Source of the DNA: Flavobacterium collinsii
GTDB taxonomy: Bacteria > Bacteroidota > Bacteroidia > Flavobacteriales > Flavobacteriaceae
DNA length: 64,000 bases
NCBI RefSeq assembly: GCF_902804485.1
Contig: NZ_CADCST010000082.1
Coordinates: 1 to 64,000 of the forward strand
Reading direction: 5' to 3'
Of this stretch, positions 55,805-64,000 are shown one piece after another (position 1 is the first letter of the stretch; the number at the start of each line of letters is the position of its first letter). The notes beneath the pieces are model-generated. The model was not told the DNA's origin and did not search any database. It saw nothing but the letters and a program-made list of their open reading frames with translations. Both the position numbers and the translations under genes were made by a program.

Positions 55805-55812
55805 TATTTTTG
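55805..55812 (+). promoter_or_regulatory. -7 promoter box of the metal-acquisition locus
   Basis: TATTTTTG fits TAnnTTTG. A TTG lies at 55778-55780, 24 bases upstream, slightly farther than ideal. Transcription would begin near 55819, so the TTG inside this box cannot be the start codon of the next gene. Confidence 0.5.
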
Positions 55813-55836
55813 CATTCGAAACAACGAAATCAACTC

Positions 55837-56214
55837 TTGAAGAAGTTATTTACCATATTTCTTTCCTGTATGCTCCTAGTGCCCTCATTCGGCAGTTTTG
55901 TTGTTTATACCTCTTTCAAATTAAATCAGGACGAAATATCAAAAACAATTTGTGTACAACGTAAAATGGTTTTTAATACCTGTAACGGTCGTTGTGAACT
56001 TCAAAAAAGTTTAAAAAAATACGCCGACAACGAAAAGAAAATGCAAAACAACCTGAAAGACAAATCAGAAGTAGTTTACATTCAAAATACAAGTACAGCA
56101 GATTTCAAACTGGTAACTCCAATAGCATCTAAAGCAAAAAATTATGCTTCTTTAGACAAAAAACCAATTTCGGTTTCTATTGCTACCTTCCACCCTCCAT
56201 CCTATTTTATATAA
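55837..56214 (+). CDS. Three-cysteine exported protein, copy 1
   Basis: A 125-residue protein I cannot name, starting at TTG 55837 (MKKLFTIFLSCMLLV). A hydrophobic leader or anchor (about 1-25) is followed by FKLNQDEISKTICVQRKM, then NTCNGRCELQKSLKKYADNEKKM, so the cysteines lie at 39, 49 and 53 (C-x9-C-x3-C), and a conserved C-terminal THFHPPSY-like end (TFHPPSYFI). It is about three quarters identical, without gaps, to the protein at 59818. Its position before an MbnP-family gene and the spaced cysteines suggest metal or thiol chemistry outside the cytoplasm, which is inference. Confidence 0.78.
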   Translation: MKKLFTIFLSCMLLVPSFGSFVVYTSFKLNQDEISKTICVQRKMVFNTCNGRCELQKSLKKYADNEKKMQNNLKDKSEVVYIQNTSTADFKLVTPIASKAKNYASLDKKPISVSIATFHPPSYFI

Positions 56215-56248
56215 TTTTTAAATCACATTTCAACATCAATTGAAATGA

Positions 56249-56277
56249 TTTTCATTGTACCCAGAAAACAATGAAAA
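56249..56277 (+). promoter_or_regulatory. Stem-loop before the MbnP-like gene
   Basis: TTTTCATTGT (56249-56258) and ACAATGAAAA (56268-56277) form a perfect ten-base stem with a nine-base loop, about 52 bases before the MbnP-like start. It could be an operator, an RNA processing site or an attenuator; nothing more can be said. Confidence 0.45.
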
Positions 56278-56329
56278 CGTGTCTACGCACACCTTACATT
56301 TAAAATTACAATTATATAAAATTCATAAA

Positions 56330-57130
56330 ATGAAAAATACTTTATACAAAGCCCTTGCTATTGTAGCACTATCTATATCCTTAATCTCATGTTCAAACGA
56401 TGACAACCAGGAAGTTTCCGGTAATGGAAAATTAATCCTGAAGTTTGACAACTCCTACGGCGCCAACGATCTTATCCTCAATACTCAACCCAATAAAACT
56501 TCAAATAACGAAGTATTAAAAATCAGTCTGGTTAAATATATCGTGAGCAATATTGTTTTAACGAAAGCCGATGGTACCACCTATACTTATCCAAAAAGCA
56601 AAAGCTATTTCATTGCAGATGAGGCAACTGCCGAAGGACGTGCGTTTGAACTGACCGATATTCCTGCGGGAGATTACGTCAAAGTAAAATTCGGAATTGG
56701 AGTTGATGAAGACCAGTGGAAACTTGGTGCTGCCGGACAGGGTAACTTTTTAGCTCAAGCCGACGCAGCAGGAATGATGTGGTCATGGGCAGCGGGTTAC
56801 AAATTCTTTGCTTTGGAAGGAACTTTCACCTCTGCAACCGTTACTAAAGCAACTCCGTTTATGATCCATACCGGTAAAACAGGAACTGACTACAACTATA
56901 CCGAAGTTGCAATTAATTTACCAACAAAAGCACTTGTTCGTACCACTATTACACCCCAAGTTCACTTTATAACCGACTTGTCTAAAATCATCGACGGAAC
57001 CAACAAAATTATCCTTTCCGACAACAATATGGGCGGCATGGGCGCTATGATTATGGGCGGTGCAAAACTGCCGTTAATCACTAAAAACATTTCAACAATG
57101 TTTAGAGTAGATCACGTACATAACGACTAA
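56330..57130 (+). CDS. MbnP-family copper-binding lipoprotein
   Basis: A 266-residue lipoprotein. The start ATG 56330 (MKNTLYKALAIVALSISLISC, Cys21) gives a proper lipobox; the TTG 75 bases upstream does not. It is beta-rich, with the family landmarks LKFDNSYG, KISLVKYIVSNI, GIGVDEDQWK and MMWSWAAGYKFFALEGTF. In methanotrophs MbnP partners MbnH, which oxidises a tryptophan of MbnP to kynurenine to make a copper site. Tryptophans 130, 151 and 153 are candidates here. The tail has FRVDHVHND, possible extra metal ligands. The next gene encodes the MbnH-like partner. Copper as the metal is inference from the family. Confidence 0.86.
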   Translation: MKNTLYKALAIVALSISLISCSNDDNQEVSGNGKLILKFDNSYGANDLILNTQPNKTSNNEVLKISLVKYIVSNIVLTKADGTTYTYPKSKSYFIADEATAEGRAFELTDIPAGDYVKVKFGIGVDEDQWKLGAAGQGNFLAQADAAGMMWSWAAGYKFFALEGTFTSATVTKATPFMIHTGKTGTDYNYTEVAINLPTKALVRTTITPQVHFITDLSKIIDGTNKIILSDNNMGGMGAMIMGGAKLPLITKNISTMFRVDHVHND

Positions 57131-57189
57131 TTTATTTTTAAGAAGTACAAACCTTAGGGGAAATAAAACCTGAGTTTTCCAACATGCCT

Positions 57190-57224
57190 TATCTTTTGTG
57201 TCCGCCAAAATGGACATAAAAGAA
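57190..57224. repeat. Core of a family E repeat, copy 2
   Basis: TCTTTTGTGTCCGCC and GGACATAAAAGA form an imperfect palindrome matching the centre of the element at 5165. The ends of the full element are not clear here. Confidence 0.55.
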
Positions 57225-57363
57225 TATTGGTAAGGAAAAACAACACTGCTGCTTCTACAAATCAAAGAGTAATCCCGATAAAAAAACTACTTGTTCTACT
57301 TGCATCAATTCGTGTAAGTAGTGGTAGAAAAATTCTCTTTACTCTTTTTATACTTTAAAAATC

Positions 57364-58404
57364 ATGCTGAAAATAAAACATTTTCTATGGTTACTGCTTC
57401 CGCTGATGTGGAGTTGCTCTAATCAGGAAGAAGAATACGTAAACATTCCTTTAGAATTTACTGTTCCCTCGAACTTTCCTGCTTTAGCGTATAACATTGC
57501 GCAGAATCCTCCGACTGAAAAAGGATTTGAACTGGGCAAAAAACTATTTTATGACGGACGTTTAGCGTCTGACGGCGTAGTTTCCTGTGGCTTTTGTCAC
57601 ATACAGGCCAACGCCTTCACCCATCACGGACACACCGTAAGTCATGGCGTGAATGATGCTCAGGGAACACGAAATACACCATCGATTCAGAATCTGGCTT
57701 ACCAGCCGATATTTATGTACGATGGAGCTGCAGACCATTTAGACCTGCAACCTATAGTTCCCTTAACGAGCATTATAGAAATGAATGGAGATCTGAATGC
57801 TATTCTGAAGATGATGAAAGGCGACAAAGAGTACAAAAAATTATTTGGACAAGCTTTTAATGACGGGGAAATCTCAACCGAAAATATGCTAAAAGCGCTT
57901 TCGCAGTTTATGGTTATGGTTACTTCTTCTAATTCAAAGTTTGACAAATACAGACGTAAAGAACCCGGTGGAACTTTAACAGCTGATGAATTGGCCGGAT
58001 ATGATTTATTCAAATCTAAATGTGCCTCCTGCCATGCCACCGACTTACAGACAGACAATTCTTTTCGCAACAACGGCCTGGCGGTAAACCCAATGGTGAA
58101 CGATGTTGGGAGATATAAAGTCACTGAGTTAGCGAGCGACTATTACAAATTCAAAGTACCTAGTTTACGAAATGTGGAAGTTTCAGGACCTTATATGCAC
58201 GACGGACGATTTGGCACTTTAGAAGGTGTTCTGGAGCACTACGCAAGTGGTATAGAATCTTCGCCAACACTGGATCCGATATTAAAGCAAAATGGAAAGT
58301 TTGGAATTCAACTTACGGATACCGAAAAAACAAAAATAATAGCGTTTTTAAAAACGCTAACAGATAATCAGTATTTGACAGATAAGCGTTTTGCAGAATA
58401 TTAA
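57364..58404 (+). CDS. MbnH-like di-haem cytochrome c peroxidase family lipoprotein
   Basis: A 346-residue extracytoplasmic di-haem enzyme of the MauG/CcpA superfamily. The leader ends in LMWSC (Cys18). Two c-type haem motifs are CGFCH (75-79) and CASCH (220-224). Following them come FTHHGHTVSHG, GTRNTPSIQN, LDLQPIVPL and VPSLRNVEVSGPYMHDGRFGTLEGVLEHY, all typical of the family. Directly after an MbnP gene the expected role is MbnH-like oxidation of an MbnP tryptophan rather than simple peroxide removal. It is separated from MbnP by a 233-base gap with a repeat, so co-transcription is likely but not certain. Confidence 0.9.
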   Translation: MLKIKHFLWLLLPLMWSCSNQEEEYVNIPLEFTVPSNFPALAYNIAQNPPTEKGFELGKKLFYDGRLASDGVVSCGFCHIQANAFTHHGHTVSHGVNDAQGTRNTPSIQNLAYQPIFMYDGAADHLDLQPIVPLTSIIEMNGDLNAILKMMKGDKEYKKLFGQAFNDGEISTENMLKALSQFMVMVTSSNSKFDKYRRKEPGGTLTADELAGYDLFKSKCASCHATDLQTDNSFRNNGLAVNPMVNDVGRYKVTELASDYYKFKVPSLRNVEVSGPYMHDGRFGTLEGVLEHYASGIESSPTLDPILKQNGKFGIQLTDTEKTKIIAFLKTLTDNQYLTDKRFAEY

Positions 58405-58430
58405 AGAAAGACATTAAACCGTTTTTTTTT

Positions 58431-58564
58431 AATACATAGAAACATAGATTCGTTTAATCACAAAAGGCGCTTCACTTACATTAACAAACATAGCTATGTG
58501 TAAATGATGTGTCATTTATTTTAACCTTTTTCAAGAGACTTTATTCTATGTTTCTATGTGTTAA
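58431..58564 (-). repeat. Long palindromic element, family D, copy 2 (inverted)
   Basis: AATACATAGAAACATAGATT (58431-58450) is mirrored by ATTCTATGTTTCTATGTGTTAA (58543-58564). The centre has ACATAGCTATGTG and the core AAAAGGCGCTTCACTT, the reverse of the core in copy D1 at 49214. Confidence 0.82.
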
Positions 58565-58614
58565 AATTAATTGTACCTAATGGCATAAAATAAAATTAAA
58601 ATAAAAACCGGAGT

Positions 58615-58804
58615 CCTAGCCCCGATTACTTCACCTAACTTTTATTTTCATAGGAGTTCAGTGAATTATATTTGAAGTGAAAAGTCTTTTTGAAAAAAGA
58701 CCTAATTTTTCCTGGGTTTATAAAGCGACCAGCGGAAGCTTTGTAAAAACATAGAAAAATTGGATTTTGAAAAAAGCTTGAAACGAAAAGCGGGATCAGC
58801 TCCT
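58615..58804 (+). repeat. Expanded family E repeat, copy 3
   Basis: It has the family E ends, TCCTAGCCCCGAT at the left and GCGGGATCAGCTCCT at the right, but about 160 bases of different sequence between them, including AAAAGTCTTTTTGAAAAAAGACC, which can fold. Confidence 0.6.
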
Positions 58805-58817
58805 AAAAACAATAAAA

Positions 58818-59783
58818 ATGAAAATAAAAAAAACAATAGTAATATTAATGCTTTTGGTTGGTTTTTCGGCCTTTAGTTTTACTGCAAAAGATAGCATTTC
58901 GGCCTTTACTTTTCAGCGTTTGGCAATGATGGAAGATTTTGATTGCGATGCGTGCGGATGTTCAGCAAGTGGTGGAAGTATGGGTTTTGGCTCGATGCTA
59001 AACAATAATTTTGTAGGCTTGAGATATATGAAACAAAGCTATACAAGTCGCGACGGAATCTTTGCCAATTCACCTTGGATCGATGAAAACTTCAATACGA
59101 TTCAGGCTTGGACGCGAGTTCCGGTGACGGAGAAAATTCAGATTTCGGCGTTAGTTCCGTATCATTTTAACGAAAGACAATTAACTGCCGGAACAGAAAA
59201 CATCGAAGGATTAGGTGATATTACTGTGATGGCTTTGTATACGGTTTTTGAAACCAAAAAAGACAGCACCTTTTTTACGCATAAAATAAATTTGGGTGGC
59301 GGTATAAAACTTCCTACCGGAAAATTTAAAGAAGCAAATAATTTAGGAAGCATTAATCAGAGTTTTCAGTTGGGAACCGGAAGCTGGGATTTTCCGTTAG
59401 TTTCTGAATATGTGGTAAAGCATAAAAACTTAGGCTTAAACACAACGCTAAACTACATTTTTAAAACTGAAAATAGTAAAAATTACCAATACGGCGATCA
59501 GTTTAATTATGCCGGAACGTTCTTTTATTTGTTCGATTTAAAATCAATTCAAATTGTTCCGCAAGCAGGTTTAGCGGGCGAGGTCTACCAAACCAACCAA
59601 CAACACGGATTGAATTTACCTAATACAGCCGGTGATATTTTGTTTGGCAAATTTGGCATCGAAGCCGGAAAAGATAAATTTTCGGTAGGAATTAATGCGA
59701 TGTTGCCTATTAACCAAAACTTATCAAGCGGTAATATGGAGGCAAATTACAGATGGAGCATCAACTTAAATTATACCCTGTAA
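58818..59783 (+). CDS. Outer-membrane beta-barrel protein with N-terminal CxxCxC cluster
   Basis: A 321-residue exported protein. After a signal peptide (about 1-22) the mature N-terminus carries FDCDACGCSASGGSMG with cysteines 43, 46 and 48 (CxxCxC), a likely metal site. The rest has the strand pattern of an outer-membrane barrel (FVGLRYMKQSYTSRDG, GGGIKLPTGKF, TAGDILFGKFGIEAG) and ends in WSINLNYTL. Similar transporter-like proteins occur beside MbnP/MbnH genes in Bacteroidota. The barrel together with the TonB receptor downstream may form the outer-membrane part of the system. Confidence 0.78.
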   Translation: MKIKKTIVILMLLVGFSAFSFTAKDSISAFTFQRLAMMEDFDCDACGCSASGGSMGFGSMLNNNFVGLRYMKQSYTSRDGIFANSPWIDENFNTIQAWTRVPVTEKIQISALVPYHFNERQLTAGTENIEGLGDITVMALYTVFETKKDSTFFTHKINLGGGIKLPTGKFKEANNLGSINQSFQLGTGSWDFPLVSEYVVKHKNLGLNTTLNYIFKTENSKNYQYGDQFNYAGTFFYLFDLKSIQIVPQAGLAGEVYQTNQQHGLNLPNTAGDILFGKFGIEAGKDKFSVGINAMLPINQNLSSGNMEANYRWSINLNYTL

Positions 59784-59817
59784 TTTTTAAAACAGAAGAA
59801 AAACAACGAAACAAGCT

Positions 59818-60195
59818 TTGAGAAAAATTGTCATCATATTTCTTTCCTTCATGCTTTTAATGCCATCATTTGGCAGTTTCTGCGTTTACACGGTATTTAA
59901 GCTCAATCAGGAAGAGATATCAAAGACTATTTGTGTACAACGCAAAATGCTTTTTAATAGTTGTAATGGTCGATGCGAACTTCAGAAGAGCTTGAAAAAA
60001 TATGATGATAACGAAAAAAGAATGCACGACAATTTGAAAGACAAAGCAGAGGTAGTCTACATTCAGAATATCATTATAGCCGATTTTAAAATAATCCCAC
60101 CAACAGAATCGACAGCGAAAATTTTTGCTCCCACGGATAAAAAACCTGTTTCGGTTTCGAATACTACTTTTCATCCACCGTCTTATTTGATATAG
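59818..60195 (+). CDS. Three-cysteine exported protein, copy 2
   Basis: Paralogue of the protein at 55837, equal in length (125 residues) and aligned without gaps at about three quarters identity. The start TTG 59818 (MRKIVIIFLSFMLLM) is at the same place, and the bases before it (AACAACGAAA...TTGA) are also shared. Cysteines 39, 49 and 53 and the FHPPSYLI end are kept, and it gains one more Cys at 22 in the anchor. It lies 34 bases after the barrel gene and 92 before the TonB receptor. Function unknown; linkage to metal uptake is inferred. Confidence 0.78.
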   Translation: MRKIVIIFLSFMLLMPSFGSFCVYTVFKLNQEEISKTICVQRKMLFNSCNGRCELQKSLKKYDDNEKRMHDNLKDKAEVVYIQNIIIADFKIIPPTESTAKIFAPTDKKPVSVSNTTFHPPSYLI

Positions 60196-60206
60196 ATTTT
60201 AGTCCC

Positions 60207-60258
60207 GCTTTTCAATTCTTTTGAAAAGCTTTTTCGGCATTCTGTCAAGAAAATGTCG
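60207..60258 (+). promoter_or_regulatory. Two stem-loops before the TonB receptor gene
   Basis: GCTTTTCAA/TTGAAAAGC (60207-60229) is a perfect nine-base stem, and CGGCATT/AATGTCG (60235-60258) a second with one G-U pair. They lie 30-80 bases before the receptor start. The flanks resemble a degenerate family E element, so these may be repeat remnants or regulatory folds. Confidence 0.45.
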
Positions 60259-60287
60259 GGTACTTTTTAAAATTTATATCATTTAAA

Positions 60288-62447
60288 ATGAAGAAAATAT
60301 ACTTCGCTCTATTCATTGTAGGGCAATGTGTCTTAGCACAAAACAAAGTCAAGCAAGATACAACACAATCTCAGGAACTGGATAATATTTTTATCACCGC
60401 AAATCGTACCGCTACCTTGCGTAAAGAAACTCCGGTTGCCATAAGCAAATTGACCGCTAAAACGATCAATGAAACTAAGGCGACAGCGGTTTATGAAATC
60501 ATCAACAAAACACCCGGAGTTTTGATGGTTAATTTAGGTAACGAGCAACACATGATGTCTATTCGTCAGCCTATGACAACCAATGCTTATTATTTATATC
60601 TCGAAGATGGTTTGCCTATTCGTCCAATGGGAATCTTTAACCACAATGCTTTATTAGAAATTAATCAGTTTAATATACAAAGTATCGAGGTTGTAAAAGG
60701 TCCTGTTTCGTCTTTGTACGGACCCGAAGCGGTTGGCGGAACGATTAATTTAATTTCGCAAAAACCTCCTGTTGATCCGGAATTTAAATTTGGCGTTCAG
60801 GCTGATAATTACGGATATCGAAGATTTCAGGCGGCTGGCGGCGCAACAATTGGAAAAGTCGGTTTTCATATTGCCGGAATTTCGAGTTTGCAGGAAAACG
60901 GCTGGATGACGTATTCTGACTATAGTAAAGACAATCTAAATGCGAGAATTGATTACAACATCTCCTCTTCGACCCGATTAATCAGCAATACGATGTACGG
61001 AAAATATTATTCGGACATGAGCGGAACTGTTAATGAAGCTGCTTTTAATAACAGAACTTACCAAAGCACCTCTAATTTCACTTATAGAAAATCTGACGCA
61101 TTAAGAACACGATTAACATTAGAACACGACTGGAACAGCAATTCGAGCAGTTATATTACAGCATATTTGCGCGATAATAAATTGGGACAAAATCCTTCTT
61201 ACGGAATTAGATGGAGCCCAACGGTAAATCCTACTACGGCAAAAGGCGAAGTTAACTCGAATAACTTTAAAAGTTATGGCGCGATTGGGCAGCATACTCA
61301 AAAATTCAATTTTTGGAACACCAAATTGGTTGCAGGAGCTTTATACGATTATTCCCCCGTGACCTATTGGTCGTATGTTATCGATCTAAAAGCCAATCTA
61401 AATCCTGGACAAGCTGGCAAACAAACCGTTAGTTCATACGAGATTGTTGCCCAACATCCGGACTCAAAATTAGCCAATTATACGGCAGATATTTTCAACT
61501 CCGCCGGATATGCGCAATTGAGTTTTAACCCGATCGAAAAACTAATTATTACCGTTGGCGGACGCTACGATAATATGAAAGTCAATTACAACAATGCGCT
61601 TGACAATTCTACAGGAAGTAAAGTTTATGATAAAATGACTTTTAAAGCCGGTGCCAATTACAATCCAACTGAATTTGCTGGTTTTTATGGCAATTATTCT
61701 CAGGGTTTTGCGCCTCCCGGAATTACGTCAATCTTTAGAACCAAACCCGGAACTGGCGGAACAACTGGCGTTCCTGCTGACTTTTATTATAATCTCGATC
61801 CCGCAACTTTCAACAATTACGAAATTGGCGGATGGCTTTCTTTTCTTGAAAACAAATTAAATTTTGACTACGCTTTATACTATATGGAAGGAAAAAATGA
61901 ACTTTTGAACATTAAACTTCCTGATAATTCGACAGATTATCGTTCGGCTGGAGAAACGCGTCATAAAGGCATTGAGTTTGGCGCTTCGTATAGTCCTTCA
62001 AAACAATTCAACATTCGTCTTGGCGGAACTTACGCACAACACACCTATATCGATTTTAAACTTTCTGACAAACCAAGCGATCCTGTTCAAAATCTGGACG
62101 GGAAAGAAATGCCGGCCGCACCAAAATGGTCTGGAAATTCTGAGGTAAGTTATTACCCAAACTGGCTTCCAAATTTTCGAACTTCTGTCGAATGGCAATT
62201 GGTTGGGAGTTATTACCAAGATCAGATTAATACCGTAAAATATAGTGGTTATAACTTATTCAACGCCAGAATAGGTTATCAATGGAAAAGCATTGAAGTT
62301 TACGGAAACGTACTCAATTTAACCGATAAATTATACGCTTATAATGTTTCGAGAGCCAATACCGCAAACGCTCAGCCCACTTATACAGCAGCAGCTCCAA
62401 GAACTTTTGTGTTTGGAATACAGTATAATTTTTCATTAAAAAAATAG
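60288..62447 (+). CDS. TonB-dependent outer-membrane receptor
   Basis: A 719-residue active transporter of the outer membrane. The signal peptide (about 1-18, ending VLAQ) is followed directly by the plug domain with no carboxypeptidase-like extension: NIFITANRTATLRKETPVAIS, VYEIINKTPGVLMVN, YLEDGLPIRPMG and VEVVKGPVSSLYGPEAVGGTINL-like motifs. About 22 strands follow, with a C-terminal FVFGIQYNFSLKK. Receptors with this plug type include copper and siderophore transporters. Its neighbours, an MbnP/MbnH pair, point to copper or a copper chelate, which is inference. Confidence 0.9.
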   Translation: MKKIYFALFIVGQCVLAQNKVKQDTTQSQELDNIFITANRTATLRKETPVAISKLTAKTINETKATAVYEIINKTPGVLMVNLGNEQHMMSIRQPMTTNAYYLYLEDGLPIRPMGIFNHNALLEINQFNIQSIEVVKGPVSSLYGPEAVGGTINLISQKPPVDPEFKFGVQADNYGYRRFQAAGGATIGKVGFHIAGISSLQENGWMTYSDYSKDNLNARIDYNISSSTRLISNTMYGKYYSDMSGTVNEAAFNNRTYQSTSNFTYRKSDALRTRLTLEHDWNSNSSSYITAYLRDNKLGQNPSYGIRWSPTVNPTTAKGEVNSNNFKSYGAIGQHTQKFNFWNTKLVAGALYDYSPVTYWSYVIDLKANLNPGQAGKQTVSSYEIVAQHPDSKLANYTADIFNSAGYAQLSFNPIEKLIITVGGRYDNMKVNYNNALDNSTGSKVYDKMTFKAGANYNPTEFAGFYGNYSQGFAPPGITSIFRTKPGTGGTTGVPADFYYNLDPATFNNYEIGGWLSFLENKLNFDYALYYMEGKNELLNIKLPDNSTDYRSAGETRHKGIEFGASYSPSKQFNIRLGGTYAQHTYIDFKLSDKPSDPVQNLDGKEMPAAPKWSGNSEVSYYPNWLPNFRTSVEWQLVGSYYQDQINTVKYSGYNLFNARIGYQWKSIEVYGNVLNLTDKLYAYNVSRANTANAQPTYTAAAPRTFVFGIQYNFSLKK

Positions 62448-62456
62448 AATCCTTTT

Positions 62457-62523
62457 TGCCACAGATTAAAGAATTTAAAAAGATTATTTTAAAAAATCAT
62501 TCTAATCATTTTAATCTGCGGCA
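62457..62523. repeat. Palindromic repeat, family G
   Basis: TGCCACAGATTAAA (62457-62470) and TTTAATCTGCGGCA (62510-62523) are inverted copies with one G-U-compatible change. It lies ten bases after the receptor stop and may act as a transcript end. Confidence 0.7.
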
Positions 62524-62541
62524 CAAAATAATAATTATTAG

Positions 62542-62622
62542 AAGCTAATCCCGCTCTCGGCTTTATCTTTTTATGTCCGCCGCGGCGGACATAAAAAGGA
62601 TATCGCCTCCATCGGGGCTAAA
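62542..62622 (-). repeat. Family E repeat, copy 4 (inverted)
   Basis: Read on the minus strand it starts TAGCCCCGAT, has the hairpin core TTTTTATGTCCGCCGCGGCGGACATAAAAAG-like centre (a perfect palindrome around GCGGCGGAC/GTCCGCC) and ends GCGGGATTAGC. It lies ten bases before the next start codon. Confidence 0.75.
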
Positions 62623-62632
62623 AAACCTAAAA

Positions 62633-64000
62633 ATGAGCAAAGAAATAAACAAAGACAAAAAATCTAAAAAGAAAGATTCAAAATTTGTCAAGAAAGTCAA
62701 GCAGCACATGTACAAATGGCATCGAACAATTGGCTTAATAACCATTGTTCCGGTTATTTTCTGGACTTTATCAGGATTAATGCATCCGTTTATGGCGCAT
62801 TTTTTTAAACCCGAAATTGCACGCGATAAACTAGAAATACCAATAATTGATAAAACCCAACTGCACTTTTCAATTCAGGAAGTTTTACAAAAAAATGAAA
62901 TCACACAATTCAAAAATTTCCGAATCGTTTCATTCAACAACGCTACTTTTTATCAGGTAAAAACAATCTTTGGTGAACTGATCTATTTCGATACTTCGAA
63001 TGCAAAGAAGCTGGAAAACGGAGATCAAAAATATGCCGAATGGCTTTCGCGCTATTTTCTGGACGATCAAAAAAGCGCCATTAAACAAAGCGAAGTCGTA
63101 ACCGAATTTACGTCGCAATACAAATATGTCAATCGTTATTTACCCGTATACAAACTAAGTTTTGATCGTCCGGATGCCATGCAGGTTTATGTCGAAACAT
63201 CATCAGGCAAACTCGCCACTTATAACCCAACTTCGAGACAAGCGTTTATCTGGTTCTTTGATACGTTTCATAATTGGTCGTTTATCGATGTAATATCAAA
63301 CAATAGTATCCGAATTATAACGATGATTTTTTTGTTATCTATCATTGGCTTTTCGGCCATAAGCGGAATCGTGATTTATGGTTTATTATGGAAACAATTT
63401 AAAAAAACAGACTCTTTACAACCTAAAAAAGGCATTAGAAAATACCATCGCCAAATTGGTATTTGGATTTCGCTTTTTACCTTGACATTTGCTTTTAGCG
63501 GTGCTTACCATGCCACTACAAAATGGAATCCGTATACTTTATCGCAAATGGTTTACGAACCAACTTTCAAAACCAAAGAAATTTCTATTGCCAATACTAA
63601 TCTGGATTTAGACTGGAGCCGTTTTCAGAATGCGAGCATTATTACTTTAAATGACACAACCTATTTCCGTTGTCAATTGCTTGAAAAACAAAAATTCAAA
63701 ACATCGAAATCAGATTCTAATTCAAAATGGAACAAAAAAGAAGATCCAAAATCTGAAGTCGTTTATATTAATACCGCAACCAATAAAGTTATACCAGATT
63801 TGGATTTTCAATACGCTGAATTTCTCGCTTATTATTTTACAGATGGAGCTCCAAAAGCCGCTTGTTGCGAAATGGATCAAAGTTCAGATGAAACCCACAT
63901 CTCTCTAGAAAACTTAAAATTACTGGATGCTAAACTCTTAACTGATTTTAATAGTCGCGAATATGGCTTTGTCAACAAAAGATTACCGGTTATAAAACTA
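62633..64000 (+). CDS. PepSY-domain membrane protein, cut by the window end
   Basis: At least 456 codons, open at base 64000. The product starts MSKEINKDKKSKKKD and has a first helix with KWHRTIGLITIVPVIFWTLSGLMHP, the hallmark of PepSY-associated membrane proteins. A soluble loop with PepSY-like repeats follows, then a helix near residue 240 and a second WHR-like KYHRQIGIWISLFTLTFAFSGAYHA. Such proteins accompany TonB receptors and are thought to work as metal or chelate reductases. The cysteines in AACCEMDQS lie in the second loop. It follows the TonB receptor after a repeat-filled gap of 185 bases. Confidence 0.85.
   Translation, partial: MSKEINKDKKSKKKDSKFVKKVKQHMYKWHRTIGLITIVPVIFWTLSGLMHPFMAHFFKPEIARDKLEIPIIDKTQLHFSIQEVLQKNEITQFKNFRIVSFNNATFYQVKTIFGELIYFDTSNAKKLENGDQKYAEWLSRYFLDDQKSAIKQSEVVTEFTSQYKYVNRYLPVYKLSFDRPDAMQVYVETSSGKLATYNPTSRQAFIWFFDTFHNWSFIDVISNNSIRIITMIFLLSIIGFSAISGIVIYGLLWKQFKKTDSLQPKKGIRKYHRQIGIWISLFTLTFAFSGAYHATTKWNPYTLSQMVYEPTFKTKEISIANTNLDLDWSRFQNASIITLNDTTYFRCQLLEKQKFKTSKSDSNSKWNKKEDPKSEVVYINTATNKVIPDLDFQYAEFLAYYFTDGAPKAACCEMDQSSDETHISLENLKLLDAKLLTDFNSREYGFVNKRLPVIKL

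Follow-up and report, generated by a model that had tools for sequence, protein, structure and literature searches.

What is the function of two small cysteine proteins that each stand at the head of one half of a copper-type locus in Flavobacterium collinsii (Bacteroidota)? The locus lies at the end of the window, the whole 64,000-nucleotide (nt) stretch of contig NZ_CADCST010000082.1 that was analysed, and consists of seven consecutive plus-strand genes: small Cys protein, MbnP-family lipoprotein, MbnH-like di-haem lipoprotein, barrel, second small Cys protein, TonB-dependent receptor and PepSY_TM membrane protein. An earlier, sequence-only reading of this DNA had described these genes in the same order and taken them for a complete copper-uptake machine without methanobactin genes, in which the duplicated small proteins, each heading one half, were the undescribed component. 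The order is confirmed by the coordinates and by family matches, the copper-type character of the locus is supported, and both small proteins do precede a half. The role assigned to them as a component of the machine is not sustained, since two prolines close to the C-terminus, a near-fixed spacing between these and the Cys motif, the position upstream of copper-related genes, non-ATG starts and a nearby promoter element favour regulatory leaders. The two proteins are probably copper-responsive leader open reading frames (ORFs), that is, arrest peptides, one for each half of the locus, which resemble CruR and CutF but show no detectable similarity to DUF2946.

The small proteins are 74% identical and 125 aa long each, within the limit of <150 aa applied to CutF-like leaders. 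Their architecture comprises a hydrophobic N-terminal segment, which follows MKK or MRK as judged by eye in the alignment, the motif C-x9-CxGxC, a variable linker of 62-73 residues and, in most members, F[HR]PP 1-8 residues before the stop. The two consecutive prolines (PP) fall within the last 15 residues of both proteins and occupy positions 120-121 in leader ORF 1, with the stop four residues later. Ile34, Cys39, Cys49, Gly51, Cys53, Leu55, Pro120 and Pro121 are invariant in 28 diverse members. A single-sequence search detected the family in 109 of 150 Flavobacterium genomes, and an alignment search with a full-length model detected it in 154 of 395 Bacteroidota genomes, representing 68 of 170 genera. 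It has no Pfam or NCBIfam model of its own, and the matches of 28 members to existing models were scattered and weak (E 0.0008 or worse), none being accepted. A TGF-beta-like fold was considered and rejected. The Pfam matches to it are weak, with 9 of 28 members reaching E<=1 and a lowest E of 0.003, and the two proteins of the window score 17.9 and 15.4 bits where the cut-off is 27; these matches are attributed to the spacing of the Cys residues.

Conservation was counted over 209 unique members (the window, L023-L142 and L173-L232; the short loci L003-L022 and L143-L172 are outside the analysis, and other sets of 40 and 60 loci were hand-picked from listings). PP lies at most 14 residues from the end in 207 of them; one of the two exceptions carries FRPP followed by a longer tail and the other has no PP in its last 20 residues. 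The spacing from CxGxC to PP ranges from 62 to 73 residues with a mode of 66, Cys-x9-CxGxC is present in 200/207 and F[HR]PP in 166/207. Circularity in the PP count was avoided by using a hidden Markov model (HMM) without its C-terminal 34 columns; with this model PP was found in the last 12 residues of all 96 family ORFs in 80 MbnP loci. In each of the 80 ORFs located directly upstream of MbnP, PP lies at most 14 residues from the end. The same holds across the phylum, where PP is present in 64/64 ORFs of 60 loci hand-picked for diversity from the full-length-model listing, again with a spacing of 62-73. Among 1260 other ORFs of at least 200 aa, which served as a control, 6 had PP in their last 12 residues.

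The way in which these ORFs begin and end points in the same direction. Starts other than ATG were assigned by a simple rule to 44 of 55 copies, and they occur in 32 of 64 ORFs of the phylum set. The Flavobacterium -7 consensus TAnnTTTG, whose place is -12 to -5 (PMC9723704), occurs between -110 and +9 of the rule-placed start in 75 of the 91 MbnP-heading leaders (shuffled sequence, 10%). In the window, no such box precedes leader ORF 2, whose start lies 34 nt past the barrel gene; the locus may thus be transcribed as a unit, with one leader following the other. At the other end, the second Pro codon is CCC in 58 of 153 copies versus 13 of 153 for the first (neighbours, 492/5440), and in the phylum set the corresponding counts are 24/64 and 6/64. 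In toeprints of CruR, the ribosome stalls with one of the two Pro codons in its P site and the other in its A site (PMC12992588).

Position was examined in loci collected by MbnP alone (the best 80 of 431 candidates, from Flavobacterium or Flavobacteriaceae with one '[Flexibacter]'), and in all 80 the small ORF lies directly upstream of MbnP, 24-226 nt before its first in-frame ATG. Among the matches listed for the phylum, 43 of 121 MbnP matches, including 21/21 within the genus, have a same-strand family member at 0-900 nt upstream; none has one at 0-900 nt downstream, or within 6 kb on the opposite strand. In the window the next same-strand gene follows leader ORF 1 by 115 nt and leader ORF 2 by 92 nt, both inside the <1000 nt of the CutF-like filter. 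In the phylum set, 60 of the 64 leader ORFs have a gene within 600 nt (the other four were excluded), which was a TonB plug protein in 26 cases, MbnP in 12, YtkA in three and SCO1 in two; the TonB-copper model TIGR01778 matched 18 of these 60 genes at E<=1e-10 (best 7e-82). By eye, the leader of L033 precedes a SCO1-like gene and those of L053, L056 and L059 a cupin/AraC-like gene, suggesting that other operons stand under the same kind of leader. DUF2946 itself was detected in few genomes of the phylum (8 of 296, with 5 scoring above the cut-off) and PF11162, its Pfam model, has no match in this genome. In one other genome (L256), a DUF2946 ORF ending in RGPPGLLA lies directly before MbnP, and L252 has a short ORF ending in RGPPAVA before MbnP; the slot upstream of MbnP is filled there by the classical kind of leader.

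Three conserved Cys after a hydrophobic N-terminus, in genes adjoining MbnP and other copper-type genes, would also suit membrane-anchored periplasmic copper chaperones that pass the metal between receptor, MbnP and inner membrane, and CutF itself was first conjectured to be a chaperone (PMC9426467). Such a function is unlikely here, as it leaves unexplained the terminal PP of 207/209 members and its near-fixed distance from the Cys across a variable linker, the location before MbnP and never just behind it among the matches listed, the non-ATG starts, and the presence of a DUF2946 leader in the same slot of another genome.

If the small proteins are arrest peptides, the following mechanism can be proposed. 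Transcription would start some 20 nt upstream of leader ORF 1, an ORF that is probably translated weakly owing to its TTG start, and the hydrophobic N-terminal segment would target the nascent chain to the inner membrane. When copper is absent, the ribosome would stall with the prolines of F[HR]PP in its P and A sites, and the downstream operon would be transcribed and translated. Copper bound to Cys39 and CxGxC, which would be held beyond the membrane by the 62-73 residue linker, would pull on the chain and relieve the stall. Once the ribosome had finished and left, Rho or the stem-loops would switch off the downstream genes within the intergenic region. About 30 residues are accommodated in the ribosome tunnel and about 17 are required to cross the membrane (PMC9973294), so that the linker would place CxGxC 15-26 residues past the membrane at the Pro arrest, which suggests periplasmic sensing. 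Leader 1 would gate MbnP, MbnH and the barrel, and leader 2 would exert additional control over the TonB receptor and the reductase-like PepSY_TM protein. Since the genes resemble ones for uptake and for the maturation of copper proteins, their expression would be expected under copper scarcity.

Several results weigh against the leader reading. The first group concerns the metal: the TonB receptor of the window is closer to the siderophore receptor 5FP1 (E=5e-20) than to CrtA, 9RVQ (E=7e-14), of the 60 next genes 22-24 are matched by haem and siderophore receptor models and 11 by SusC/RagA, and the TIGR01778 match falls below its cut-off in the one case shown. With haem and siderophore models thus matching at least as many of the next genes as the copper model does, the leaders might sense another metal or the redox state (iron, zinc) in a general metal or siderophore locus, a suggestion in line with the reduction of ferrisiderophores by known PepSY_TM proteins (PMC13038864). 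This alternative is rather improbable, given that MbnP/MbnH, SCO1 and YtkA genes follow the leaders, that most CutF-like leaders with a Cys motif precede copper genes (PMC9973294) and that three COX1-family genes are present in the genome as possible copper clients.

The second group concerns the shut-off step. In 31 of the 96 gaps behind leader ORF 1, chosen by eye for alignment, two stem-loops were recognised, SL1 with 95.4% and SL2 with 92.4% of cells paired (slid controls, 35-56%); 4 of the 16 pairs show changes on both sides, and the cells out of 493 that are not Watson-Crick comprise 34 G.T, 5 A.C and 26 other mismatches, an excess of G.T over A.C that marks the plus-strand RNA. SL1 and SL2 are conserved in one clade, and other clades carry a different sequence after the leader. 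Attenuation by an intrinsic terminator finds no support as a general rule, as terminator-like sites (score <= -6) are not enriched behind leaders (28% of 145 versus 38% of 99 MbnP ends; MbnH 13% of 98, barrel 64% of 83, TonB receptor 8% of 25, PepSY 60% of 15, secA 100% of 39). Unusually strong folding over the 90 nt after the leader is likewise unsupported (mean z -2.50 for leaders, -2.23 for MbnP and -2.66 for the barrel; TonB receptor -3.64, MbnH -1.03, secA -5.25). Since neither terminators nor folding exceed those at other gene ends, little speaks for the proposed shut-off step. The last 120 nt of the leaders contain more C than G, which is partly a product of the encoded motif and is at most suggestive of a Rho-type site. 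Regulation by the RNA alone, as attenuator or stability element with the small ORF a passive translated leader, would accommodate the compensatory and G.U changes of SL1/SL2 in one clade and the terminator-like hairpin behind leader ORF 2, but is highly improbable because the post-leader sequence varies by clade, Cys and PP are kept phylum-wide, and such protein-level constraint would be needless.

The third group bears on how general the leaders are. Outside the genus, 22 of 100 MbnP matches have a member immediately upstream among the matches listed, and 73 MbnP loci have no listed member within 6 kb. Twenty of these 73 were examined and two contain one, intact in L249 and broken by an in-frame stop in L251, none being recognised in the other 18. 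A general, phylum-wide tie between MbnP and the leader was thereby found to be partial only. A barrel relative was recognised in three of these 20 loci (L236, L249 and L251) and in none of the other 17; as both leader and barrel are mostly unseen there, the leader seems tied to the barrel-containing module and not to MbnP/MbnH generally. The L251 member (around base 2499, reverse strand) has its stop in the linker and still encodes FHPP behind it, as a pseudogene or a sequence error would.

The remaining points concern the family itself and the counts. No DUF2946 match was obtained at E<=1 in 28 members, and hhalign gave a probability of 0.1% for family versus DUF2946, a weak test with only 5 sequences on the DUF2946 side (L257, L258, L260 and L261 are outside that alignment). 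The family lacks detectable similarity to CruR, has F[HR]PP as its terminal motif in place of RAPP/RGPP, and has Cys-x9-CxGxC instead of CXXC; the CXXC and RAPP motifs 45 residues apart that define DUF2946/CruR are found in neither small protein. Among 1209 other ORFs of at least 300 aa (588,637 residues), none contains F[HR]PP where 2.2 occurrences are expected, which shows that the motif is specific to the family and does not imply avoidance elsewhere. The TAnnTTTG box is present in 8 of 24 leaders heading a TonB receptor (shuffled, 2%), and counts throughout are not independent because the copies are related and partly duplicate. The literature search, beyond which lay subscription papers, preprints and supplements, returned no experiment on this family, no paper on it and none on MbnP with leader ORFs in Bacteroidota.

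Table 1. Features of the locus, in window coordinates.
Feature	Coordinates	Strand	Basis or remark
Sigma-A -7 box TAnnTTTG (TATTTTTG)	55805..55812	+	Read in sequence; predicted transcription start ~20 nt 5' of the leader ORF 1 TTG
Leader ORF 1, 125 aa, TTG start, hydrophobic N-terminus, Cys39, CNGRC 49-53, FHPP	55837..56214	+	
Proposed arrest site, the Pro-Pro codon pair of leader ORF 1	56194..56199	+	Sequence and family conservation
Stem-loop SL1, directly 3' of leader ORF 1 stop	56226..56247	+	Pairing across 31 loci
Stem-loop SL2	56249..56277	+	Pairing across the same 31 loci as SL1
MbnP-family lipoprotein, WSWAAGYKF and MIHTG motifs	56330..57130	+	PF20243 E=8e-42; predicted fold
MbnH-like di-haem lipoprotein, CGFCH 75-79, CASCH 220-224, Tyr293	57364..58404	+	PF03150 E=3e-47; PDB 6E1C
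Predicted outer-membrane barrel, N-terminal CDACGC	58818..59783	+	Without family match
Leader ORF 2, 125 aa, TTG start, CNGRC and FHPP	59818..60195	+	Starts 34 nt past barrel gene
Terminator-like hairpin GCTTTTCAA/TTTGAAAAGC then TTTTT, 3' of leader ORF 2 stop	60207..60234	+	Sequence and fold
TonB-dependent receptor	60288..62447	+	PF00593 E=2e-41, PF07715 E=5e-16
PepSY_TM membrane protein	62633..64231 (window ends 64000)	+	PF03929 E=4e-16

The genes behind leader ORF 1 include what is, by sequence, key residues and, for MbnP, predicted fold, a genuine MbnP/MbnH pair, as the sequence-only reading had held. The MbnP-like protein belongs to PF20243 and scores 41.7 bits with NCBIfam TIGR04052, below the curated cut-off of 140. 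A ColabFold model built on a 17-sequence alignment (mean predicted local distance difference test score, pLDDT, 87.7) has as its six best PDB matches the six chains of Methylosinus trichosporium MbnP (7L6G; E 2e-8 to 2e-6, template-modelling score ~0.5). The W.W..GY.F motif is present in 108 of 116 unique MbnP relatives and is followed by H.G in 108, so that family, fold and the WxW and His motifs all agree with membership. By analogy, the protein is a putative kynurenine-type copper protein. The gap between MbnP and MbnH (57131-57363) is long and, with a terminator-like site at 38% of the 99 MbnP ends, partial termination or processing is possible there.

The MbnH-like protein belongs to PF03150 and scores 213.9 bits with NCBIfam TIGR04039, below the curated cut-off of 362.85. 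Its best PDB chain is 6E1C ('Di-heme enzyme'; E=6e-40), which we take to be MbnH. It has two CxxCH haem sites (C75, C78, H79 and C220, C223, H224), and its Tyr293, presumably at the position of the axial haem ligand of the MauG/MbnH type, aligns with Met in three of four peroxidases (gap in the fourth) and with Tyr in 6E1C; among 97 relatives this position is Tyr in 88 and Phe in 9. Residue 119, before DG, is Tyr in the window (relatives: Tyr 68, Trp 25, Phe 3, gap 1), and the only Trp residues, at positions 9 and 16, lie within the presumed signal, for which reason electron or radical transfer in this MbnH may differ.

The remaining genes were also inspected. The barrel protein has no Pfam or NCBIfam match at E<=0.1, and 'barrel' is the label given to it in the sequence-only reading. 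In its CDACGC motif, Cys43, Cys46 and Cys48 are each conserved in >=95% of 84 relatives, and a barrel relative stands directly after a leader ORF in L202, L204 and L217. In the plug of the TonB receptor, E86, Q87, H88, M90, M114 and H119 are conserved in at least 95% of 24 sequences and are possibly metal-facing. Eighteen relatives of the PepSY_TM protein were compared, a set that excludes the copy of the window; in L094 numbering, H30, H51, H56, H213, H272, H293 and H494 and the pair C411 C412 are present in at least 95% of them, and the window copy also has CC (AACCEM). The locus is flanked by secA upstream and by a TrmH-like gene, named by eye, downstream on the opposite strand. The three COX1-family genes of the genome are likely copper clients of the locus.

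Conservation of the gene order had been named in the earlier reading as a point to check. In the 80 MbnP loci, both halves including TonB receptor and PepSY are present in 14, the first half alone between secA and TrmH in 15, and the first half alone in other surroundings in 43 (relatives weaker than E=1e-10 are missed, and a few loci are truncated at contig ends). Among 41 script-labelled loci, leader-MbnP-MbnH-barrel, leader-TonB receptor-PepSY and mixtures of both were found. The laboratory species Flavobacterium johnsoniae carries the first half in strain CI04 (L068). Gene order is thus kept as two modules, and the joined seven-gene order is a minority. A 'complete machine' was too strong a description, given that the halves occur separately in other genomes and that the receptor is nearer to a siderophore receptor than to CrtA. 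The claim that methanobactin genes are lacking holds for the MbnB family, PF05114 having no match in the genome; other methanobactin genes were not searched for.

The closest known parallel is CruR (bp2923, DUF2946) of Bordetella pertussis, which has a predicted export signal, with CXXC and RAPP 45 residues apart, and heads cruR-crtA-crpH; copper relieves the arrest and Rho terminates transcription, and operons headed by homologues of CruR also include MbnPH-like genes (Roy et al., PMC9426467). CrtA, the TonB receptor of this operon, is an importer of copper chelates (PMC12914433), and CrpH is a PepSY_TM protein that supports haem-copper oxidases (PMC13038864). The Flavobacterium locus shares with it the small protein in first place, a Cys motif, PP just before the stop, a long gap, and then, in its second half, the TonB receptor and PepSY_TM protein. 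It differs in the distance from Cys motif to PP (62-73 versus 45 residues) and in having two leaders per locus, and the Rho step described for CruR is a possibility here.

CutF of Rhodobacter capsulatus is likewise shorter than 150 aa, with a hydrophobic N-terminus, a Cys motif, PP at most 15 residues from the end, a gene within 1000 nt and stem-loops in the gap. CutF turns a multicopper oxidase on with copper (PMC9973294), whereas the genes here look like uptake. Bacteroidota proteins without names are among the published CutF-like ones (list D in PMC9973294), and thus this kind of leader is already known in outline for the phylum. Leader ORFs with a conserved terminal Pro have also been described in Bacteroidota before sec genes (uA_NSP-stop and uDF_NAP-stop); they differ in carrying NSP or NAP at the very end and in having protein-localisation targets, and the accessible text mentions no Cys motif (PMC10987492).

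MbnP/MbnH pairs are known far beyond methanobactin producers (PMC3621798). The present pair resembles the known ones (7L6G, 6E1C) in the MbnP fold, the WxW..GY.F and HxG motifs and a di-haem enzyme in which Tyr replaces the Met of peroxidases, and is unlike them in the absence of an MbnB-family gene from the genome, in Tyr for Trp before DG and in the barrel gene that follows. If the leader reading is correct, it would provide a setting for those MbnP/MbnH pairs that stand away from methanobactin genes. A 2025 survey of RAPP/RGPP leader ORFs reported copper-related members from many lineages, with Bacteroidota among the exceptions (PMC12992588). This gap would be filled by the family described here, which 154 of the 395 sampled genomes encode and whose terminal motif is a different one. 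The family would be a second, apparently independent example of a nascent chain that senses copper, and would offer a new arrest motif for Bacteroidota ribosomes as well as a handle on copper import in the phylum.

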